NCBI GenBank assembly: GCA_007128865.1
Contig: SKWP01000180.1
Coordinates: 1 to 17,358, forward strand
DNA: 17,358 nucleotides
DNA from: Paracoccaceae bacterium
GTDB lineage: Bacteria; Pseudomonadota; Alphaproteobacteria; Rhodobacterales; Rhodobacteraceae
Direction: 5' to 3'
This document shows, one piece after another, positions 3,201 to 17,358 of this stretch; position 1 is the stretch's first letter, and every line of letters begins with the position of its first letter. The notes beneath the pieces are model-generated. The model ran no database searches, was not told where the DNA came from, and saw only the letters and a program-made list of their open reading frames with translations. A program made the translations under genes and the position numbers.

Positions 3201-3716
3201 CGAAAGCACCGGGATATAGGCATCGACCATCGCCCAGTCGGACTGGTGCAGCACGGTGGAGGATTCGCCGGTATGGTCGTCGCCAAGCGCCATCAGCACG
3301 CCGCCATGGGGCGCGGTGCCGGCCATGTTGGCGTGACGGATTGCATCGCCCGACCGGTCCACCCCCGGCCCCTTGCCATACCAGAGCCCGAACACCCCGT
3401 CGAAACGGCCCTCTCCGCGCAGTTCAGCCTGCTGGCTGCCCCAGAGCGCGGTTGCGGCGAGGTCTTCGTTCAACCCTTCGTGAAAGCGGATGTTTGCCGC
3501 CTCCAGCCAGCGTGCGGCCCGGCGCATCTGCATGTCGACCGCACCAAGCGGCGATCCGCGGTAGCCGGTGACATAACCGGCGGTGTTCAGACCTGCCGCC
3601 CGGTCGCGTGCGGCCTGCGCCAGTACCAGCCTGACCAGCGCCTGTGTCCCGTTCAGCAACACCGGCGATCTTTCGAGATCGAAACGGTCGTTCAGGGTTA
3701 CATTCTCGCGGCCCAT
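294..3716 (-). CDS. Indolepyruvate ferredoxin oxidoreductase, fused single-chain form
   Basis: This 1140-residue cytoplasmic enzyme belongs to the family that oxidatively decarboxylates aryl-pyruvates such as indolepyruvate to the acyl-CoA with ferredoxin as electron acceptor, in aromatic amino acid breakdown. The N-terminal half is the IorA-like thiamine diphosphate part: YYCSGCPHN at about 433-441, a cofactor-binding GDGTYNHSG at 499-507 and [11 protein letters not shown] at 527-537. A cysteine cluster at about 636-680 (CEGCGDC, then further cysteines) would bind iron-sulfur. The IorB/gamma domain starts at GVGGTGVVT near 722. A long C-terminal extension, common to the fused alphaproteobacterial proteins, ends the chain. 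The ATG at 3714-3716 follows AGGAGGT with five bases between, a strong ribosome binding site. The gene is divergent from a LysR regulator, with an inverted repeat in the shared promoter region. The family assignment is firm; the exact 2-oxoacid used is inferred. Confidence 0.93.
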
Positions 3717-3760
3717 GACTTACCTCCTGTCGGTGGCAGCGGCGCCTTGGCCCCATGGCA

Positions 3761-3789
3761 ATGATAGGTCAAATCAGCTGACCTACAAA
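3761..3789 (-). promoter_or_regulatory. Candidate promoter of the indolepyruvate oxidoreductase gene
   Basis: Read on the minus strand, TATCAT (plus bases 3761-3766) matches five of six bases of the -10 consensus. TTTGTA (3784-3789), 17 bases upstream, is a poor -35. A start site near 3753 would give a leader of about 37 bases. The weak -35 suits an activated or otherwise regulated promoter, and the inverted repeat at 3765-3785 lies across the spacer. Confidence 0.35.
3765..3785. promoter_or_regulatory. Perfect inverted repeat, likely operator in the divergent promoter
   Basis: The arms TAGGTCA (3765-3771) and TGACCTA (3779-3785) are perfect inverted copies separated by seven bases. The inner part starts with T and ends with A at T-N11-A spacing (3769-3781), the pattern of LysR-type boxes. 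It sits between the start codons of the oxidoreductase (minus) and the LysR gene (plus), the classical place for a LysR binding site that controls both. Its sequence differs from the T-N11-A box at 4841-4855, so the two may bind different proteins. The binding protein is inferred, not shown. Confidence 0.55.
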
Positions 3790-3874
3790 GCGCAATCTGG
3801 TGATTTCGCAAACCCGCGCGTCCGGGGTAATGATCTGTCACGCAGGGCGGGCGAGCACAGGGCAGGATTACCCC

Positions 3875-4777
3875 ATGGATTGGGACAAGCTAAGGATATT
3901 TCACGCGGTCGCGGATGCGGGCAGTCTGACCCATGCCGGCGATACGCTCAACCTGTCGCAGTCGGCGGTCAGTCGGCAGATTCGCGCGCTCGAGGACGGG
4001 CTGAACACCACGCTGTTTCACCGCCACGCGCGCGGCCTGATTCTGACCGAACAGGGTGAGCTGCTGTTCGACGCGACCCGCGCGATGACCAAACGCCTGG
4101 AAGCGGCCGAGGCGCGGATCCGCGACAGCGAGGAGGAAGTGTTCGGGCAGTTGCGGGTGACGACGACCACAGGGTTCGGATCGCTGTGGCTGGCGCCGCG
4201 TCTGACCGCGCTTTATGCCAAATACCCGCATATCCGCATCGACCTGATGCTCGAGGAACGTGTGCTGGACCTGCCCATGCGCGAAGCCGATGTCGCCATT
4301 CGCATGAAGGAACCCAGCCAGGCCGATCTGATCCGCAAGCGGCTGATGAGCGTCCGCATCCGGCTCTATGCCTCGCCGGGTTACCTGCGGGACAACCCCG
4401 CACCGGAAACGGTCGAGGATCTGGCCCGGCATCGTCTGGTTTGCCAGAATGTCACATCGGCGCAGGTTTCGGCCGCTGCCGCGCTGGTGCGGATGCTGAT
4501 GGCGGGACAGATCGGTTCCATGCTCACGGTCAACAACTATTTCGGGGTGCTGCAGGCGGTGCTTTCGGATGTGGGAATCGGTGTGCTGCCGGACTATCTG
4601 ACCGATGATTTCCCTGACCTTGTTCGGGTATTGCCTGATATCGAGAGCGTCGAGGTGCCTGTATACCTCGCCTATCCCGAGGAGCTGCGCCAGTCCAAAC
4701 GTGTCGCGGTGTTCCGGGATTTCGTCCTGGATGAAGTCATGGCCTACCGGCGCAAAAGGCGTGCCGATGCTGCCTGA
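3875..4777 (+). CDS. LysR-family transcriptional regulator, LsrB/VtlR-like
   Basis: This is a 300-residue DNA-binding regulator. The N-terminal winged helix-turn-helix spans residues 2-62 and includes the recognition region LSQSAVSRQIRALE at 27-40. The effector-binding domain fills residues 90 to about 290. The opening (MDWDKLRIFHAVADAGS) and the FHRHARGLILTEQGE stretch at 48-62 match my memory of the LsrB/VtlR regulators of Rhizobiales, which control envelope, stress and small-RNA genes. LsrB is described as redox-sensitive through several cysteines, but this protein has only one (C190), so that mechanism may not carry over. I chose the ATG at 3875, which follows AGGA with seven bases between and starts exactly at the family's DWDKLR, over an upstream in-frame ATG at 3800. 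The gene is divergent from the oxidoreductase and is followed by a candidate small RNA. LysR family is certain; the LsrB/VtlR subgroup is likely. Confidence 0.92.
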   Translation: MDWDKLRIFHAVADAGSLTHAGDTLNLSQSAVSRQIRALEDGLNTTLFHRHARGLILTEQGELLFDATRAMTKRLEAAEARIRDSEEEVFGQLRVTTTTGFGSLWLAPRLTALYAKYPHIRIDLMLEERVLDLPMREADVAIRMKEPSQADLIRKRLMSVRIRLYASPGYLRDNPAPETVEDLARHRLVCQNVTSAQVSAAAALVRMLMAGQIGSMLTVNNYFGVLQAVLSDVGIGVLPDYLTDDFPDLVRVLPDIESVEVPVYLAYPEELRQSKRVAVFRDFVLDEVMAYRRKRRADAA

Positions 4778-4840
4778 GCGCCGGCCAACCGCGACTCTGC
4801 CGGAAGTTGATCGCCGCATTTCCGCCACAAACCGAGGTAT

Positions 4841-4855
4841 GTATGCAACGCATAC
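4841..4855. promoter_or_regulatory. LysR-type T-N11-A box upstream of the candidate small RNA
   Basis: GTATGCAACGCATAC is a perfect palindrome of two 6-base arms around AAC and contains TATGCAACGCATA, an exact T-N11-A LysR box. Its centre is about 74 bases upstream of the predicted small RNA start, near the usual position of a LysR recognition site. A looser copy of the half-site, TATGTGCAAAC at 4867-4877, lies closer to the -35 and could be the activation site. The LysR gene ending at 4777 is the obvious candidate to bind here. Confidence 0.6.
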
Positions 4856-4886
4856 CGGAAATGTACTATGTGCAAACTGATTAATC

Positions 4887-4915
4887 TTGCAGCGACTCCG
4901 GAACATTCCTATCTT
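4887..4915 (+). promoter_or_regulatory. Sigma70-type promoter of the candidate small RNA
   Basis: TTGCAG (4887-4892) and TATCTT (4910-4915) match the -35 and -10 consensus at four positions each and are separated by exactly 17 bases. Transcription should begin near 4922. No start codon with a ribosome binding site follows before the terminator at 4982-5010, which argues that the product is an RNA and not an mRNA. Confidence 0.65.
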
Positions 4916-4921
4916 GATTTT

Positions 4922-5010
4922 CGAAGGCGCAGGGTAGCCGGCGACGGCGAGACGCTCCTTCTTACCTCCCTGTTGGACTAAGGCCGAGCCTTTGGCTCGG
5001 CCCTTTTTTT
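4922..5010 (+). ncRNA. Candidate trans-acting small RNA (AbcR-like architecture), about 89 nt
   Basis: No coding frame is supported here, but the segment has every part of a small RNA gene: a LysR box and a promoter upstream, and an intrinsic terminator at the end. The predicted RNA has a 5' hairpin GCCG-GCGA-CGGC (4937-4948) closed by a GNRA tetraloop. A largely unpaired CU-rich stretch follows (4955-4976) with CUCCUU and CUUACCUCCC, both complementary to Shine-Dalgarno sequences, and then the terminator stem. In Rhizobiales the AbcR small RNAs have this layout, lie beside or under control of an LsrB/VtlR LysR protein, and silence transporter mRNAs by covering ribosome binding sites. The assignment to AbcR is by architecture and neighbourhood, not by sequence alignment. 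The 5' end is uncertain by a few bases. Confidence 0.65.
4982..5010 (+). terminator. Rho-independent terminator
   Basis: A 9-bp perfect stem, GGCCGAGCC (4982-4990) with GGCTCGGCC (4994-5002), is closed by a TTT loop and followed by seven T (5004-5010). It is the clearest intrinsic terminator in the window. It ends the candidate small RNA and would also stop read-through from the LysR gene before purL. Confidence 0.93.
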
Positions 5011-5105
5011 GTGCCCGCCCGGCGCGCAGAGCGTCCCCGGTGGCCCTTTTACCCTTCGCCCGCATGCCGTAAGAAGCGCCCGCATCGCCAGCCAGGGAGC
5101 GCGGC

Positions 5106-7265
<2,160 letters not shown>

Positions 7266-7330
7266 ACCCGCACTTGCCCGCGCAGCACGGGCGATTTACA
7301 TCGGACACAGGGACCGTCCGGAGGACAGCC

Positions 7331-7573
7331 ATGGCCATGCAGGCTCACGAGATCGAGGCGCTGCTGCGCGAAACCTTTCCGCAGGCGCGCATCACCATCA
7401 CCGACCTTGCCGGGGACGGCAACCATTATGCCGCCGAGGTTGTGGACGAAAGCTTTCGCGGGCTGAACAGGGTGCAGCAGCAGCGTGCCGTCTATGCTGC
7501 GCTGAAGGGCAGGATGGATGGCAGCCAGGGCGAACTGCACGCGCTTGCGCTGACGACCCGGGCGCCGGATTGA
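7331..7573 (+). CDS. BolA/IbaG-family iron-sulfur protein
   Basis: This is an 80-residue protein of the BolA family, which pairs with monothiol glutaredoxins to bind a shared [2Fe-2S] cluster in iron sensing and cluster delivery. The class II KH-like fold is recognisable from GDGNHYAAEVVDESFRG near residues 28-44 followed by NRVQQQRAVYAAL. The histidine in NHY and the one near the C-terminus (ELHALAL) are candidate cluster ligands. ATG at 7331 lies seven bases after GGAGG at 7320-7324; an upstream in-frame start at 7232 lies inside the end of purL and lacks family similarity. The next frame begins four bases after the stop and grxD follows, so BolA and its glutaredoxin partner are co-transcribed. 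A BolA-fold acid-stress role is the alternative reading; the Grx neighbour favours iron-sulfur work. Confidence 0.92.
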   Translation: MAMQAHEIEALLRETFPQARITITDLAGDGNHYAAEVVDESFRGLNRVQQQRAVYAALKGRMDGSQGELHALALTTRAPD

Positions 7574-7577
7574 ACCG

Positions 7578-7736
7578 ATGATTCATGGTGCCCTCGCGCT
7601 TCTGGTTCTGGTTGCGGTGGCCATCATCGCCACCCGGGCGCGCGGCGGGCACGACGACGACGATGACAGCAACGGTCCGGGCGGAATGCGGCGCAGGCGC
7701 ATTACGGTACGGACAAACCCGAAAGGACCGAAATGA
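7578..7736 (+). CDS. 52-residue single-pass membrane miniprotein between bolA and grxD
   Basis: I do not recognise this protein. The frame opens with ATG four bases after the bolA stop, and its TGA overlaps the grxD ATG as ATGA, the signature of translational coupling. Residues 4-19 (GALALLVLVAVAIIAT) form one hydrophobic helix. A run of five aspartates (26-30), a glycine-rich turn, four arginines (38-41) and a basic tail ending PKGPK follow. This suggests a small inner-membrane protein with a charged tail. No clear Shine-Dalgarno stands before its ATG, so it probably depends on ribosomes finishing bolA. The gapless fit between two functionally linked genes is the main evidence that it is real. 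It might tie the BolA-Grx complex to the membrane, but that is speculation. Confidence 0.6.
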   Translation: MIHGALALLVLVAVAIIATRARGGHDDDDDSNGPGGMRRRRITVRTNPKGPK

Positions 7737-8092
7737 GCGCGCAGGACAGCATTCGCCAGACCATCGAGGGCCACGACGTGGTGCTTTACATGAAAGGCAC
7801 CAAGACCATGCCGCAGTGCGGCTTTTCCAGTCGCGTGGCTGGCGTTCTCAACTTCATGGGCGTGGAATATGTGGATGTGAACGTGCTGGCCGATGAAGGC
7901 ATCCGTCAGGGCATCAAGGATTTTTCCGACTGGCCGACGATCCCGCAGCTGTATGTGAAGGGTGAATTCGTCGGCGGCTGCGACATCATCACCGAGATGA
8001 CCCTTTCGGGCGAGCTTGACCAGCTGTTCGACACCAAGGGCATCGGCTACGACAAGGACGCAGCCGAAAAGATCCGCGAGGCCAACGCCTGA
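7733..8092 (+). CDS. grxD: Monothiol glutaredoxin, Grx4 family
   Basis: This 119-residue glutaredoxin carries the CGFS active site at residues 29-32 (MPQCGFSSR) that defines monothiol Grx4/GrxD proteins. They hold a glutathione-ligated [2Fe-2S] cluster, transfer it to client proteins and form a heterodimer with BolA. K21 in YMKGTK and the WPTIPQLYVKGEFVGGCDI stretch at about 66-84 are the expected glutathione-contact segments. AAGGA lies upstream of the ATG, and the ATG overlaps the stop of the 52-residue frame. It is the last gene of the bolA cluster and converges on the ABC-F gene about 96 bases downstream. Both identity and start are well supported. Confidence 0.96.
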   Translation: MSAQDSIRQTIEGHDVVLYMKGTKTMPQCGFSSRVAGVLNFMGVEYVDVNVLADEGIRQGIKDFSDWPTIPQLYVKGEFVGGCDIITEMTLSGELDQLFDTKGIGYDKDAAEKIREANA

Positions 8093-14529: not shown

Positions 14530-15603
14530 TCAGCCGTCCGGCGCGGGCAGCACCCGAATCCGCGATGGATCAACCCCGAGCTGTACCGTGCCGCCATCTT
14601 CCAGCGTGCGATCGGCACCCGACAGCACCCGCAGCCGTGTGTCGCCCAGATGCACGACATAGCGGTTGCGCGCGCCCAGATAGACCCGCGTTCCCAGCCT
14701 TGCGCGCAAGGTTGCCCGGCCATCCGGCAGGGTTTCATCGGCGGCGAAAAGGCCGATGTCCTCCTGCCGCAGCGCGAGCGTGACCGGTCCGCGCAGGTGA
14801 CAGCCCTCCGGAAGCGGAAGGGTCTGCCCGTCCTCGAAACGTGCAACCGGACCGCCAGGGCCATCCTCGACGACTGCGGCAACGAGATTGGCGGCGCCCA
14901 GAAAGCTGGACGCGAAGGGCGTCGCAGGGTTGGTGTATATCTCGGTCGGGCTGTCCTCCTGCTCGACCCGGCCCTCGTTGATCAGCACGATATGATCGGA
15001 CAGCGAAAGCGCCTCCTCCTGATCATGGGTGACAAACAGCGTGGTAAGGCCCAGCCGCTTGTGCAGTTCGATCAGCTCGACATGCATGTCCTCGCGCAGA
15101 CGTGCATCGAGGTTCGAAAGCGGTTCATCCAGCAACAGCACCTTGGGACGCGAGACAATGGCACGGGCCAGCGCAACACGCTGCTGCTGCCCCCCTGACA
15201 GCTGCCGCGGCCGGCGTTCGGCCAGATGGCCGAGTTGCACGGTCTCAAGCGCCTCCCGCACCCGGTCGCGCTGTTCGCCCGGTGCGCCGATGCCGCGCAT
15301 GCGCAGCGGAAAACGGACATTTTCGGCCACGTTCAGATGCGGCAGCAACGCATAGGACTGGAACATCATTGCGATATCGCGCTTTTCCGGCGGCAGATGG
15401 GTGACATCGCGGCCGTCGATCTCGACCGTGCCGTTGGTGGTGCTTTCCAGCCCGGCAACGATGCGCAGCAGTGTGGTCTTGCCGCAGCCCGAGGCACCGA
15501 GAAGGCTGATGAAGGCCCCGGAAGGGATATCGAGCGAAATGCCATGCAGGACCTCGGTCTGCCCGAAGGACTTGCGGATATCGCGCAGGCGCAGATTTGC
15601 CAT
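14530..15603 (-). CDS. ABC transporter ATP-binding protein, polyamine/opine (PotA-like) family
   Basis: This 357-residue ATPase powers the two permeases encoded just upstream. It has Walker A GASGCGKTT (36-44), the Q-loop FQSYALLPHL (81-90), signature LSGGQQQR (135-142), Walker B LLLDEP (156-161) and the switch histidine H193 in THDQEEA. A C-terminal TOBE domain (about 275-350) marks the PotA/FbpC/UgpC-type importers. It starts two bases after the stop of the second permease, so the genes are translationally coupled. The family imports spermidine, putrescine, related amines, iron or sugars; sequence alone points to the polyamine/opine branch because of the paired permeases, but the cargo stays open. 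Confidence 0.93.
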   Translation of the reverse strand: MANLRLRDIRKSFGQTEVLHGISLDIPSGAFISLLGASGCGKTTLLRIVAGLESTTNGTVEIDGRDVTHLPPEKRDIAMMFQSYALLPHLNVAENVRFPLRMRGIGAPGEQRDRVREALETVQLGHLAERRPRQLSGGQQQRVALARAIVSRPKVLLLDEPLSNLDARLREDMHVELIELHKRLGLTTLFVTHDQEEALSLSDHIVLINEGRVEQEDSPTEIYTNPATPFASSFLGAANLVAAVVEDGPGGPVARFEDGQTLPLPEGCHLRGPVTLALRQEDIGLFAADETLPDGRATLRARLGTRVYLGARNRYVVHLGDTRLRVLSGADRTLEDGGTVQLGVDPSRIRVLPAPDG

Positions 15604-15605
15604 GA

Positions 15606-16409
15606 CTAGCTGCTCGCCACTTTCTGAATCCCGAGTATGCGGTCGATGATCACTATAAGGGCAACGGTTATGGCGATCATGATCGTCGAAACCGCCGCCA
15701 CCGACGGGTCCGGGCTGAATTCAAGCTGGTTGTAGATGTGAACCGGAAGCGTCGTCAGCCCGGGCCGCCGCAGGAACAGCGAAACCACGGCCTCGTCGAA
15801 GGACAGGTTGAAGGCAAAGAAGGCTCCGGCAGCAAGACCGGGCACGCATTGCGGCAACACCACCAGCCACAGTCTCTGCAACCGTCCCGCGCCCATGGTG
15901 GCAGCGGCTTCCTCGAGGAAGGGGTCGCTGTCGGCCAGCACCGCAAGCGTGGTACGCACCACATAAGGTGCGGCAATCACCGTATGTGCGACCCAGAGCG
16001 TAAGCAGCGAAACCGGGCCGAACAGCGCGCTCCACAGCATCAGCATGCCCAGGGCATAAATGATCGTCGGCAGCACCAGCGGAGACAGAAAGAAGGTAGC
16101 CATCGCCTCGGACGCCGGCAGCCGCCGGCGGTGGATCGCAACAGCCGCTGCGCCGCCCAGCAGCGTGGCAGAAAACGTGACCAGCACCGCCAGCCGCAGG
16201 CTCAGCCAGGCTGCGGCCAGGTAGGTATCCGAGCCCAGCACCGCCTGATACCAGCGCAGGCTGAACCCGCTGGGCGGAAAGGCGATGAACCGGCTTTCGG
16301 AAACCGAAACCCCGATCACCACGATCAGCGGACCGATCAGGAACAAGGCGCTGAGCGCGACGAACACCCAGGCAAGCAGGCGCAGCAACGGCGGAACCGA
16401 CCTAACCAT
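15606..16409 (-). CDS. ABC transporter permease, PotC-like
   Basis: This inner-membrane permease of 267 residues has about six hydrophobic segments, the first at about residues 10-32. The cytoplasmic EAA loop, EEAAATMGAGRLQRLWLVVLPQCVPGL, lies near 166-192 and docks with the ATPase. It is the second permease of the pair and corresponds to PotC by order and by the SFDEAVVSLFL stretch after the EAA loop. The ATG at 16407-16409 overlaps the stop of the preceding permease by eight bases; a GTG six bases further upstream is an alternative start. The overlap indicates coupled synthesis of both permeases. The substrate is not known. Confidence 0.91.
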   Translation of the reverse strand: MVRSVPPLLRLLAWVFVALSALFLIGPLIVVIGVSVSESRFIAFPPSGFSLRWYQAVLGSDTYLAAAWLSLRLAVLVTFSATLLGGAAAVAIHRRRLPASEAMATFFLSPLVLPTIIYALGMLMLWSALFGPVSLLTLWVAHTVIAAPYVVRTTLAVLADSDPFLEEAAATMGAGRLQRLWLVVLPQCVPGLAAGAFFAFNLSFDEAVVSLFLRRPGLTTLPVHIYNQLEFSPDPSVAAVSTIMIAITVALIVIIDRILGIQKVASS

Positions 16410-17226
16410 GCCCACCCCGCCGCGTCAGGGCGATGTAGGGGATCAGTATCAGCGCCACCCCCGCGAACAGGATCACCGCCTGCGCCGCGGCAAAGTTCCA
16501 GTCGAGTGTCTGGGTGACCTGACGGTAGATGGACGCCGCCAGCACCTGCACCCGCGGGCCGCCCAGCAGGTTCGGGGTCACGAAGGAGGATGCCGACAGG
16601 GTAAACACCAGCAGCGAACCGGCGACGATGCCCGGCACGGAAAGCGGCAGCACCACGGTCCGGATCGTCCGCAGGAAACTGCATCCCATGGTGCGCGCGG
16701 CCTCCTCGAGCCGCGGGTCGATCCGCATCATCACCCCGAGGATCGAAAGCGCCATGAACGGCAGCAGCACCTGAACCATGCCGATCACGATCGCGGTCTC
16801 GGTGTGCATGAGCGAAAAGGCCCGCCCGACAAGCCCCATGTCGCGCAGGGTCGAGGGGATCAGACCGGAGCGCGAAAGCACCACCATCCAGCCGAAGGTG
16901 CGCACCACGACCGAGGTCATCAGCGGCAGGATCACCATCACGATCAGCCACAGCCGCGCCCGTGGCCCCACCCGCGCCATGATGTAGGCAAGCGGAAAGC
17001 CGATGGCCAGACAGCACGCCGTGATCAGTGCCGACAGTCGAACTGTTCGCCACAGGACCGCGCGATAGAAATCATCGCCCAGAAAGCGGCGAAAATGATC
17101 GAGCGTCCAGCCATCGGGGCCTTCGAAGGCCAGTACCAGCATCTGCCCGATGGGGACCAGAAACGCGACCGCGAGCAGTGCCACGCCCGGCAGAACCAGC
17201 AAGAGGTTTTCCTGTCGGTCGGTCAT
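16402..17226 (-). CDS. ABC transporter permease, PotB-like
   Basis: This inner-membrane permease of 274 residues begins MTDRQENLLLVLPGVALLAVAFLVP in the usual PotB style: a short cytoplasmic tail, then the first helix at about 8-30. The EAA loop, EEAARTMGCSFLRTIRTVVLPLSVPGI, is at 174-200, and SSFVTPNLLGGPR follows in the next loop. The open frame extends to 17346, but the extra 40 residues are arginine-rich and would cover the hairpin at 17310-17334, so I take the ATG at 17224-17226 with GGAGGG twelve bases upstream. It is the first gene of the permease-permease-ATPase-LysR operon within the window. The matching substrate-binding protein is not present and is expected to the right. Confidence 0.91.
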   Translation of the reverse strand: MTDRQENLLLVLPGVALLAVAFLVPIGQMLVLAFEGPDGWTLDHFRRFLGDDFYRAVLWRTVRLSALITACCLAIGFPLAYIMARVGPRARLWLIVMVILPLMTSVVVRTFGWMVVLSRSGLIPSTLRDMGLVGRAFSLMHTETAIVIGMVQVLLPFMALSILGVMMRIDPRLEEAARTMGCSFLRTIRTVVLPLSVPGIVAGSLLVFTLSASSFVTPNLLGGPRVQVLAASIYRQVTQTLDWNFAAAQAVILFAGVALILIPYIALTRRGGHG

Positions 17227-17309
17227 CGGCCAGACCAGCCCTCCGTCTTCGCGGCCATGAGCAAGGTGAAAGGATCGTACCCGCCCTGTCGACTGCACCG
17301 CAAGCAAAC

Positions 17310-17334
17310 AGGCGGCGGCGCCATGCCGCCGCCT
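17310..17334 (-). terminator. Strong hairpin upstream of the permease operon, likely partial terminator
   Basis: A 10-bp perfect stem (AGGCGGCGGC with GCCGCCGCCT) is closed by a five-base loop and followed on the minus strand by the T-rich TGTTTGCTTG. It lies 83 bases before the first permease start and just after a TGA at 17343-17345 that could end an upstream gene. Such hairpins often follow the binding-protein gene of ABC importers and lower expression of the downstream permeases. Confidence 0.6.
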
Positions 17335-17358
17335 GCGCGCCTTCACATTGCCCGGTCG

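Follow-up and report, generated by a model that had tools for sequence, protein, structure and literature searches.

In this study, we found that the window, the whole stretch of 17,358 nucleotides analysed here, contains a complete small-RNA gene between a LysR-type regulator gene and purL. By sequence comparison, the RNA is an orthologue of SorY and not an AbcR, and the regulator is an orthologue of LsrB/VtlR. The comparison also points to conservation of the gene order, of a LysR-type box and an RpoH-type promoter before the RNA, and of the form of its 5' hairpin in Rhodobacteraceae.

Elements and Predicted Fold of the Small-RNA Gene

A preliminary description of this DNA had proposed a complete small-RNA gene beside a LysR gene. 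We read positions 3600-5400 directly and found all of the listed elements, with coordinates correct to within a few bases. Matches to the Rfam SorY and SorX models were beyond chance. The small-RNA gene is confirmed as complete, and its elements are shown in Table 1.

Table 1. Positions of the regulator gene, the small-RNA gene with its elements, and purL in the window.
Feature	Position	Strand	Basis
LysR-type regulator, LsrB/VtlR orthologue by sequence, 300 aa	3875..4777	+	Pfam HTH_1 and LysR_substrate; 9HH1; reciprocal choice by class orthologues
LysR-type box ATGT-N7-GCAT (T4840-N11-A4852)	4839..4853	+	Family comparison; consensus ATGC-N7-GCAT
GCATACCGGAAAT, one base off the VtlR/LsrB box GCAT-N3-TG-N3-T	4850..4862	+	Sequence against the published box
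Predicted RpoH-type promoter CTTGCA-N16-CCTATCT	4886..4914	+	S. meliloti RpoH1 consensus; pattern in family loci
Small RNA, SorY by sequence, about 90 nt	4921..5010	+	Start inferred from the mapped SorY start; Rfam RF02651/RF02784; aligned bases
5' hairpin GAAGG...CCTTC	4923..4961	+	Predicted fold; GCGA-capped tip 4937-4948; form conserved, sequence not
Anti-Shine-Dalgarno core ACCTCCCTGTTGGACT	4964..4979	+	Sequence; unpaired in the centroid fold
Intrinsic terminator	4982..5010	+	Stem of 9 pairs (8 G-C), followed by C and seven T
purL	5106..7265	+	NF002290, 950 bits; downstream neighbour in the conserved order

The fold predicted for 4922-5010 (-38.3 kcal/mol) has a hairpin at its 5' end, followed by an open linker and the terminator; its z-score of -1.82, taken alone, is modest. 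The hairpin GCCG-GCGA-CGGC named in the preliminary description forms in this fold as the tip of a longer stem starting at 4923. The anti-Shine-Dalgarno stretch was likewise located, and the terminator with its seven T tops the terminator list of the whole window. The window has 13 terminator-like sites, about as many as shuffled sequences do (10.9).

We also examined the RNA in the family (Rhodobacteraceae). A 5' hairpin reaching from near the start to the core was predicted, in a count made without a shuffle control, in all 55 RNAs with a definable start (of 57), and its sequence varies among them. These 55 RNAs have a median length of 81 nt, and in every one the unpaired probability of the anti-Shine-Dalgarno octamer averages above one half (mean 0.73). 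The variable 5' stem was missed by consensus folding of alignments A1 and A2, since this region cannot be aligned across the sequences; the stem was assessed sequence by sequence instead. In A2, whose sequences had been chosen by the core, the columns CCTCCCTGTTGGACT are invariant. One pair of the terminator stem switches from A-U to G-C in 6 of 40 sequences.

The RNA as an Orthologue of SorY

Rfam models were scanned against the window at E ≤ 5. The SorY model (RF02651) matched 4931-5010 with 45.3 bits (E 1.9e-6; curated score 111), and the SorX model (RF02784) matched 4936-5008 with 40.4 bits (E 7.3e-7; curated score 46.6). The mmgR/suhB model also matched (32.2 bits, E 0.0025), as did, weakly, a betaproteobacterial toxic RNA (23 bits, E 0.75). 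In the family, RF02651 matched 185 of 198 genomes at E ≤ 0.001. Only one of the 198 (G051) passed the curated score of 111, and the window's match lies far below it. The curated threshold therefore marks near-identity to Rhodobacter sphaeroides, and what we claim for the window RNA is orthology to SorY, not curated membership of RF02651.

It has been reported that R. sphaeroides SorY has its own promoter and a main 5' end at genome position 1,632,642 (PMC6238624). This position falls 3 nt from the RF02651 match in G051 (C4:1632645-1632727), just after the same LysR gene (C4:1631580-1632467). From this agreement in coordinates, G051 must be R. sphaeroides 2.4.1 and the family Rhodobacteraceae, and SorY itself is therefore the RNA between this LysR gene and purL. 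When the mapped start was aligned to the window, it fell on 4921, and in both the gap between -10 element and start is 6 nt.

The window RNA thus has in common with SorY the order LysR-RNA-purL, the 16-nt core, the 5'-hairpin form, the promoter type and the gap between -10 element and start. However, its sequence is divergent (45.3 of 111 bits), and its 5' hairpin differs in sequence and has a GNRA-capped tip. SorX shares ACCUCCCUGUUGGAC and the terminator form with the window RNA, but SorX arises by cleavage within the 3' UTR of an OmpR-like mRNA (PMC6238624), whereas the window RNA has its own promoter and a different neighbourhood.

The Neighbouring Regulator as an Orthologue of LsrB/VtlR

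The best match of the window's LysR among solved structures was 9HH1 (236 bits; next 115 bits), which is Agrobacterium tumefaciens LsrB (PMC11975290). All 67 class orthologues selected it as best among 7 of the genome's own 18 LysR matches, by at least 2.19-fold in bits, and the next paralogue in its own genome reached 105 bits compared to 648. A match at E ≤ 1e-100 was found in 187 of 198 family genomes, one in each, and at E ≤ 1e-40 in 109 of 190 class genomes. These results indicate that the neighbour is an orthologue of LsrB/VtlR by sequence, as the preliminary description had supposed. In the available text of a 2025 report, LsrB is stated to be unique to Rhizobiales, R. sphaeroides being among the species examined there (PMC11975290). 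The present sequence data disagree with that statement.

Upstream of the regulator, trxB directly precedes the LsrB orthologue in 58 of 67 class loci, an arrangement also published for rhizobia. In contrast, trxB was found upstream of LysR in none of the 32 family loci, the window included; 30 of them have a divergently oriented indolepyruvate oxidoreductase gene there. A. tumefaciens LsrB has two conserved redox cysteines, C144 and C273, and the corresponding positions are V140 and A266 in the window's LysR and V and A in 32/32 family orthologues; both cysteines together were present in none of the 67 class and none of the 32 family orthologues. Since they are missing, redox sensing by a C144/C273-type switch is unlikely in the window's LysR.

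Conserved Neighbourhood

Among the 30 best SorY loci (L003-L032), 28 carry an orthologue of the window's LysR next to the RNA, with 67-78% identity; in one of them (L003), the RNA is flanked by LysR and PurL. We then used loci centred on LysR and picked without regard to the RNA (32 family, 67 class). The core with a T-run lies downstream of LysR in 30 of the 32 family loci and 36 of the 67 class loci, never on the opposite strand. Elsewhere in the same loci, with both strands counted, the pattern occurred in 0/32 family loci (206 kb) and 1/67 class loci (580 kb). Within the flank examined, purL is downstream in 17/32 family loci. These results support the earlier suggestion that regulator and RNA are conserved neighbours.

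The core was absent within 700 nt downstream of LysR in two family loci, L084 (genome G105) and L086 (genome G064). The RNA lies about 1.5 kb from LysR in G105 and, in a further genome, G034, about 174 kb from it. In G064, no core was recognisable within 3.7 kb behind LysR despite a perfect box there. Behind LysR in this genome (L279), purL is in place, and the RNA is possibly lost or strongly diverged.

Other genes of the window were noted. BolA and glutaredoxin genes lie just downstream of purL (7298-8092, plus strand), and ABC transporter genes with one ATPase and two permease-like frames occupy 14530-17346 on the minus strand; these look polyamine-type. In the available text, a spermidine transporter subunit is the published target of SorX.

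The LysR-Type Box

The perfect palindrome GTATGC-AAC-GCATAC that had been described at 4841-4855 (T4842-N11-A4854) is present, but the conserved register lies 2 nt to the left. In that register, the window has one mismatch to the family consensus ATGC-N7-GCAT. The best match 70-200 nt upstream of the core was counted in 57 unique family loci, 3 duplicates of 60 having been dropped. It was perfect in 43 loci, one mismatch off in 12 and two off in 2, compared to 0.5 perfect and 7.1 off by one expected from dinucleotide shuffles. The LysR-centred loci agree: 24 of 32 in the family and 34 of 67 in the class (0.7 and 0.4 expected) have a perfect box no more than 350 nt past the LysR stop codon. In a control stretch, 700-1050 nt downstream of LysR, a perfect box was present in 0/32 family and 0/64 class loci. 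On the upstream side of LysR, the adjoining 350 nt contained one in 0/32 family and 3/66 class loci (0.4 expected). The box is therefore conserved in relatives. In both G034 and G105 (the L007/L024 pair), a perfect box lies beside the RNA, and no box better than two mismatches was found within 350 nt behind LysR. In these two genomes, therefore, the box goes with the RNA.

It has been reported that S. meliloti LsrB binds and activates abcR1 via tandem T-N11-A motifs and a GCAT box (PMC8844928). The window's GCAT-N3-GG-N3-T has G where the published box GCAT-N3-TG-N3-T has T. We also counted the pattern GCAT-N3-[TG]G-N3-T on either side of LysR. Of the 350-nt stretches behind the gene, 22 of 32 in the family and 23 of 67 in the class contain it (2.3 and 3.2 expected). 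Of the 350-nt stretches before the gene, 29/66 in the class (2.8 expected) and 1/32 in the family do; the class enrichment may reflect autoregulation or the coding sequence of trxB. The idea that the box serves a wider regulon in this genome was examined with ATGYN7GCATANCGG and dropped: the only sites were that of the window and C144:8651-8670, which appears by eye to be inside a gene and is likely a chance match.

The Promoter

A promoter with 17-nt spacing had been described at 4887-4915. The spacing is present, but the type is better read as RpoH-type, shifted by one position (Table 1). The window's CTTGCA-N16-CCTATCT agrees with the S. meliloti RpoH1 consensus, CTTGAA-N16-CCTATAT (PMC8844928). 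A loose pattern, CTTG-N17-19, was found in 53/57 family loci, counted without a shuffle control. A sigma-70 scan did not list the site, and the sigma-70 reading was set aside. The AbcR1 promoter has been published as sigma-70 type (PMC8844928), and SorY has been counted among the RNAs of the RpoE/RpoHI/RpoHII network (PMC8307010). The window thus appears to contain the RNA's own RpoH-type promoter, as SorY has, and its RNA gene would carry both kinds of signal, an LsrB-type box and an RpoH-type promoter. S. meliloti, in contrast, splits the two, LsrB driving abcR1 and RpoH1 driving abcR2 (PMC8844928).

LsrB-Linked RNAs in Other Families

Downstream of LsrB, CCTCCCTGTT with a T-run was found in 36/67 class loci. 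By eye, the other 31 comprised 10 with a recognisable or decayed form and 21 without an RNA of this sequence. The hairpin GTCTCCCAGAC lies downstream of LysR in 35/67 class loci and 0/32 family loci. In named genomes, the pattern CGTCTCCCAGACGTNAANCCTCCCTGTT occurred in at least 119 stretches, and 80 loci from the matches listed were examined. Among these 80, 63 have LsrB on the same strand no more than 1200 nt upstream, with TrxB before LsrB in 47 of the 63. In two others the distance to LsrB is 1347 and 2020 nt, and 15 have no LsrB upstream, 7 of these with less than 900 nt of upstream sequence. All Rfam matches in the 42 of 67 class loci scanned (17, 14 and 11) were below the curated scores.

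We built a model, R1, from 46 RNAs. All of these have the GTCTCCCAGAC hairpin, which is missing from the family, and none of their genomes was marked as belonging to that family. In the window, its only match at E ≤ 10 was 4936-5010 (27.5 bits, E 4.8e-6), and in the whole genome the window RNA was the best of 5 matches (E 7.9e-4; second E 0.0125). R1 holds 6 base pairs, and the match rests mainly on core and terminator. A similar slot, often trxB-LsrB-box-anti-Shine-Dalgarno RNA, recurs in other alphaproteobacterial families. The AbcR1 region has been called syntenic across alphaproteobacteria in a report whose main text, as available, has no mention of Rhodobacter (PMC8844928). The RNA of the form ACGTCTCCCAGACGT-gAAgCCTCCCTGTTnnACT-terminator, found in Azospirillum, Reyranella, Thalassospira, Magnetovibrio and others, is extremely conserved and apparently undescribed.

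Several single observations were made during these scans. A second SorY/SorX-like RNA of the same genome (G000:C68:3824-3900, L002 1501-1577) scored 29 bits with RF02651 and 23.2 with R1; a 541-aa open frame runs on the other strand. Weaker still was a third RNA-model match, at G000:C10:595-693 on the minus strand (19.2 bits, E 0.15). In L102 (3591-4188), three such RNA matches stand in tandem behind one LsrB orthologue, like abcR1/abcR2 in rhizobia. In some class loci, among them L047, L051 and L058, the GTCTCCCAGAC hairpin has another 5' hairpin, of the type GATGTTGCGnCGCAGCATC, ahead of it, so that the RNA there may reach a length of about 150 nt or more. Two loci titled Rhizobium sp. Q54 (L164, L199) have the LsrB-linked RNA seen mostly in Rhodospirillales-type records and are possibly mislabelled metagenome bins.

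Candidate Targets

SorY represses takP by acting on its mRNA (PMC6238624) and is Hfq-dependent; both have been published for R. sphaeroides only. In this genome, a scan for ACAGGGAGG-N3-9-ATG gave 6 sites, and the reversed control gave 0. One site (C10:631) was dropped, being antisense to the RNA-model match C10:595-693. Another (L272) has 11 contiguous complementary bases; the gene that follows it encodes a TctC-type transporter receptor (PF03401) and has CAACAGGGAGG in its leader, ahead of the ATG. The genes after the remaining four sites are those of a short-chain dehydrogenase, a molybdopterin-binding protein and a cytochrome c, and one frame that has no Pfam match. These sequence-based candidates are weak, suggestive only.

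Proposed Mechanism and Alternative Readings

We consider it likely that SorY is transcribed here from the RpoH-type promoter with activation by LsrB at the box and that, together with Hfq, it silences transport and metabolic mRNAs via their ribosome-binding sites. Stress would raise RpoH activity at the SorY promoter. The LsrB/VtlR orthologue would bind the ATGC-N7-GCAT box, whose centre is some 75 nt upstream of the start, and assist transcription; we infer this binding and activation, as well as targets of this kind in the organism. SorY, made up of the 5' hairpin, the single-stranded anti-Shine-Dalgarno linker and the terminator, would expose CCUCCCUGUUG, which with Hfq would pair to the ribosome-binding sites, and translation of these mRNAs would fall during stress. 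The locus would be the Rhodobacteraceae form of a wider alphaproteobacterial arrangement of LsrB, box and anti-Shine-Dalgarno RNA.

The preliminary description had filed the RNA under AbcR (alpha-r15). The RNA does lie downstream of LsrB, as abcR1/abcR2 do in A. tumefaciens and S. meliloti, with an anti-Shine-Dalgarno linker between hairpins and a presumed LsrB box. However, the AbcR model (ar15, RF02345) was not among the window's covariance-model matches at E ≤ 5, whereas SorY, SorX and mmgR do match, and the window RNA has one anti-Shine-Dalgarno segment (4964-4979), not the two of AbcR1/AbcR2. AbcR membership was rejected as strongly disfavoured and very improbable. RF02345 matched nowhere in 190 and then 385 class genomes, controls included, and is thus uninformative on distribution; alpha-r15 has been placed in Rhizobiaceae and Brucellaceae (PMC3712013). 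As a counterpart of AbcR, the SorY orthologue stands for its position and its presumed wiring, but not for sequence homology, which is not demonstrated; a LysR-type box and a presumed anti-Shine-Dalgarno action on transporter mRNAs are further points in common with AbcR1/AbcR2. The module first supposed was largely right in RNA gene, regulator, neighbourhood and conserved box, and unsupported in the AbcR filing. Another reading makes SorY purely RpoH-regulated, the LysR a bystander and the box the property of another regulator or of the 3' part of the LysR transcription unit. It would fit the RpoH-type pattern of 53/57 loci and the box without a recognisable RNA behind LysR in G064. The published accounts, as available, name only sigma factors for SorY transcription, and no LsrB binding or expression data on SorY were found in the literature for any Rhodobacteraceae. 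However, the box adjoins the RNA and not LysR in G034 and G105, is LysR-type and resembles the published LsrB box, and recurs downstream of LsrB in other families. We regard regulation by RpoH alone as improbable.

The resemblance to RNAs of other families can also be read in two ways. We lean slightly towards a module of LsrB, ATGC-N7-GCAT box and anti-Shine-Dalgarno RNA that would be ancestral in Alphaproteobacteria, with SorY, AbcR1 and the apparently undescribed conserved RNA as its lineage forms. SorY and the LsrB-linked RNAs of other families may instead have converged on an anti-Shine-Dalgarno stretch and a terminator. The common block is short, the SorX and mmgR models match too, the 5' hairpins differ (GTCTCCCAGAC in class loci only), and R1, with so few base pairs, matches mainly by core and terminator. 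This origin is nevertheless doubtful, since the RNAs occupy the same slot and strand after an orthologous LsrB, the same ATGC-N7-GCAT box is present, and the core reaches beyond a Shine-Dalgarno complement (CCTCCCTGTTnnACT).

Significance

The RNA itself is already known as SorY. In the literature searched, which did not include the original SorY paper, the link to the regulator and the arrangement across the class appear to be new. There, SorY was found together with AbcR1 in no paper, with VtlR in none of those listed, and with LsrB only in a Salmonella paper; SorY with LysR gave one mention each in the available text of an R. capsulatus paper and an enterocyte effacement paper. The scans point to a widespread RNA that stayed under all Rfam thresholds in the 42 loci examined, and the regulator contradicts the printed restriction of LsrB to Rhizobiales. 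Most LsrB orthologues would be predicted to respond to a signal different from oxidation of the known cysteine pair, and if the ancestral module is true, the thiol redox switch of LsrB would be a rhizobial addition. SorY, a much-studied stress RNA, gains a candidate transcription factor encoded next to it. SorY in Rhodobacter and LsrB-AbcR in rhizobia, which have been studied separately, may thus be tied into one testable arrangement.
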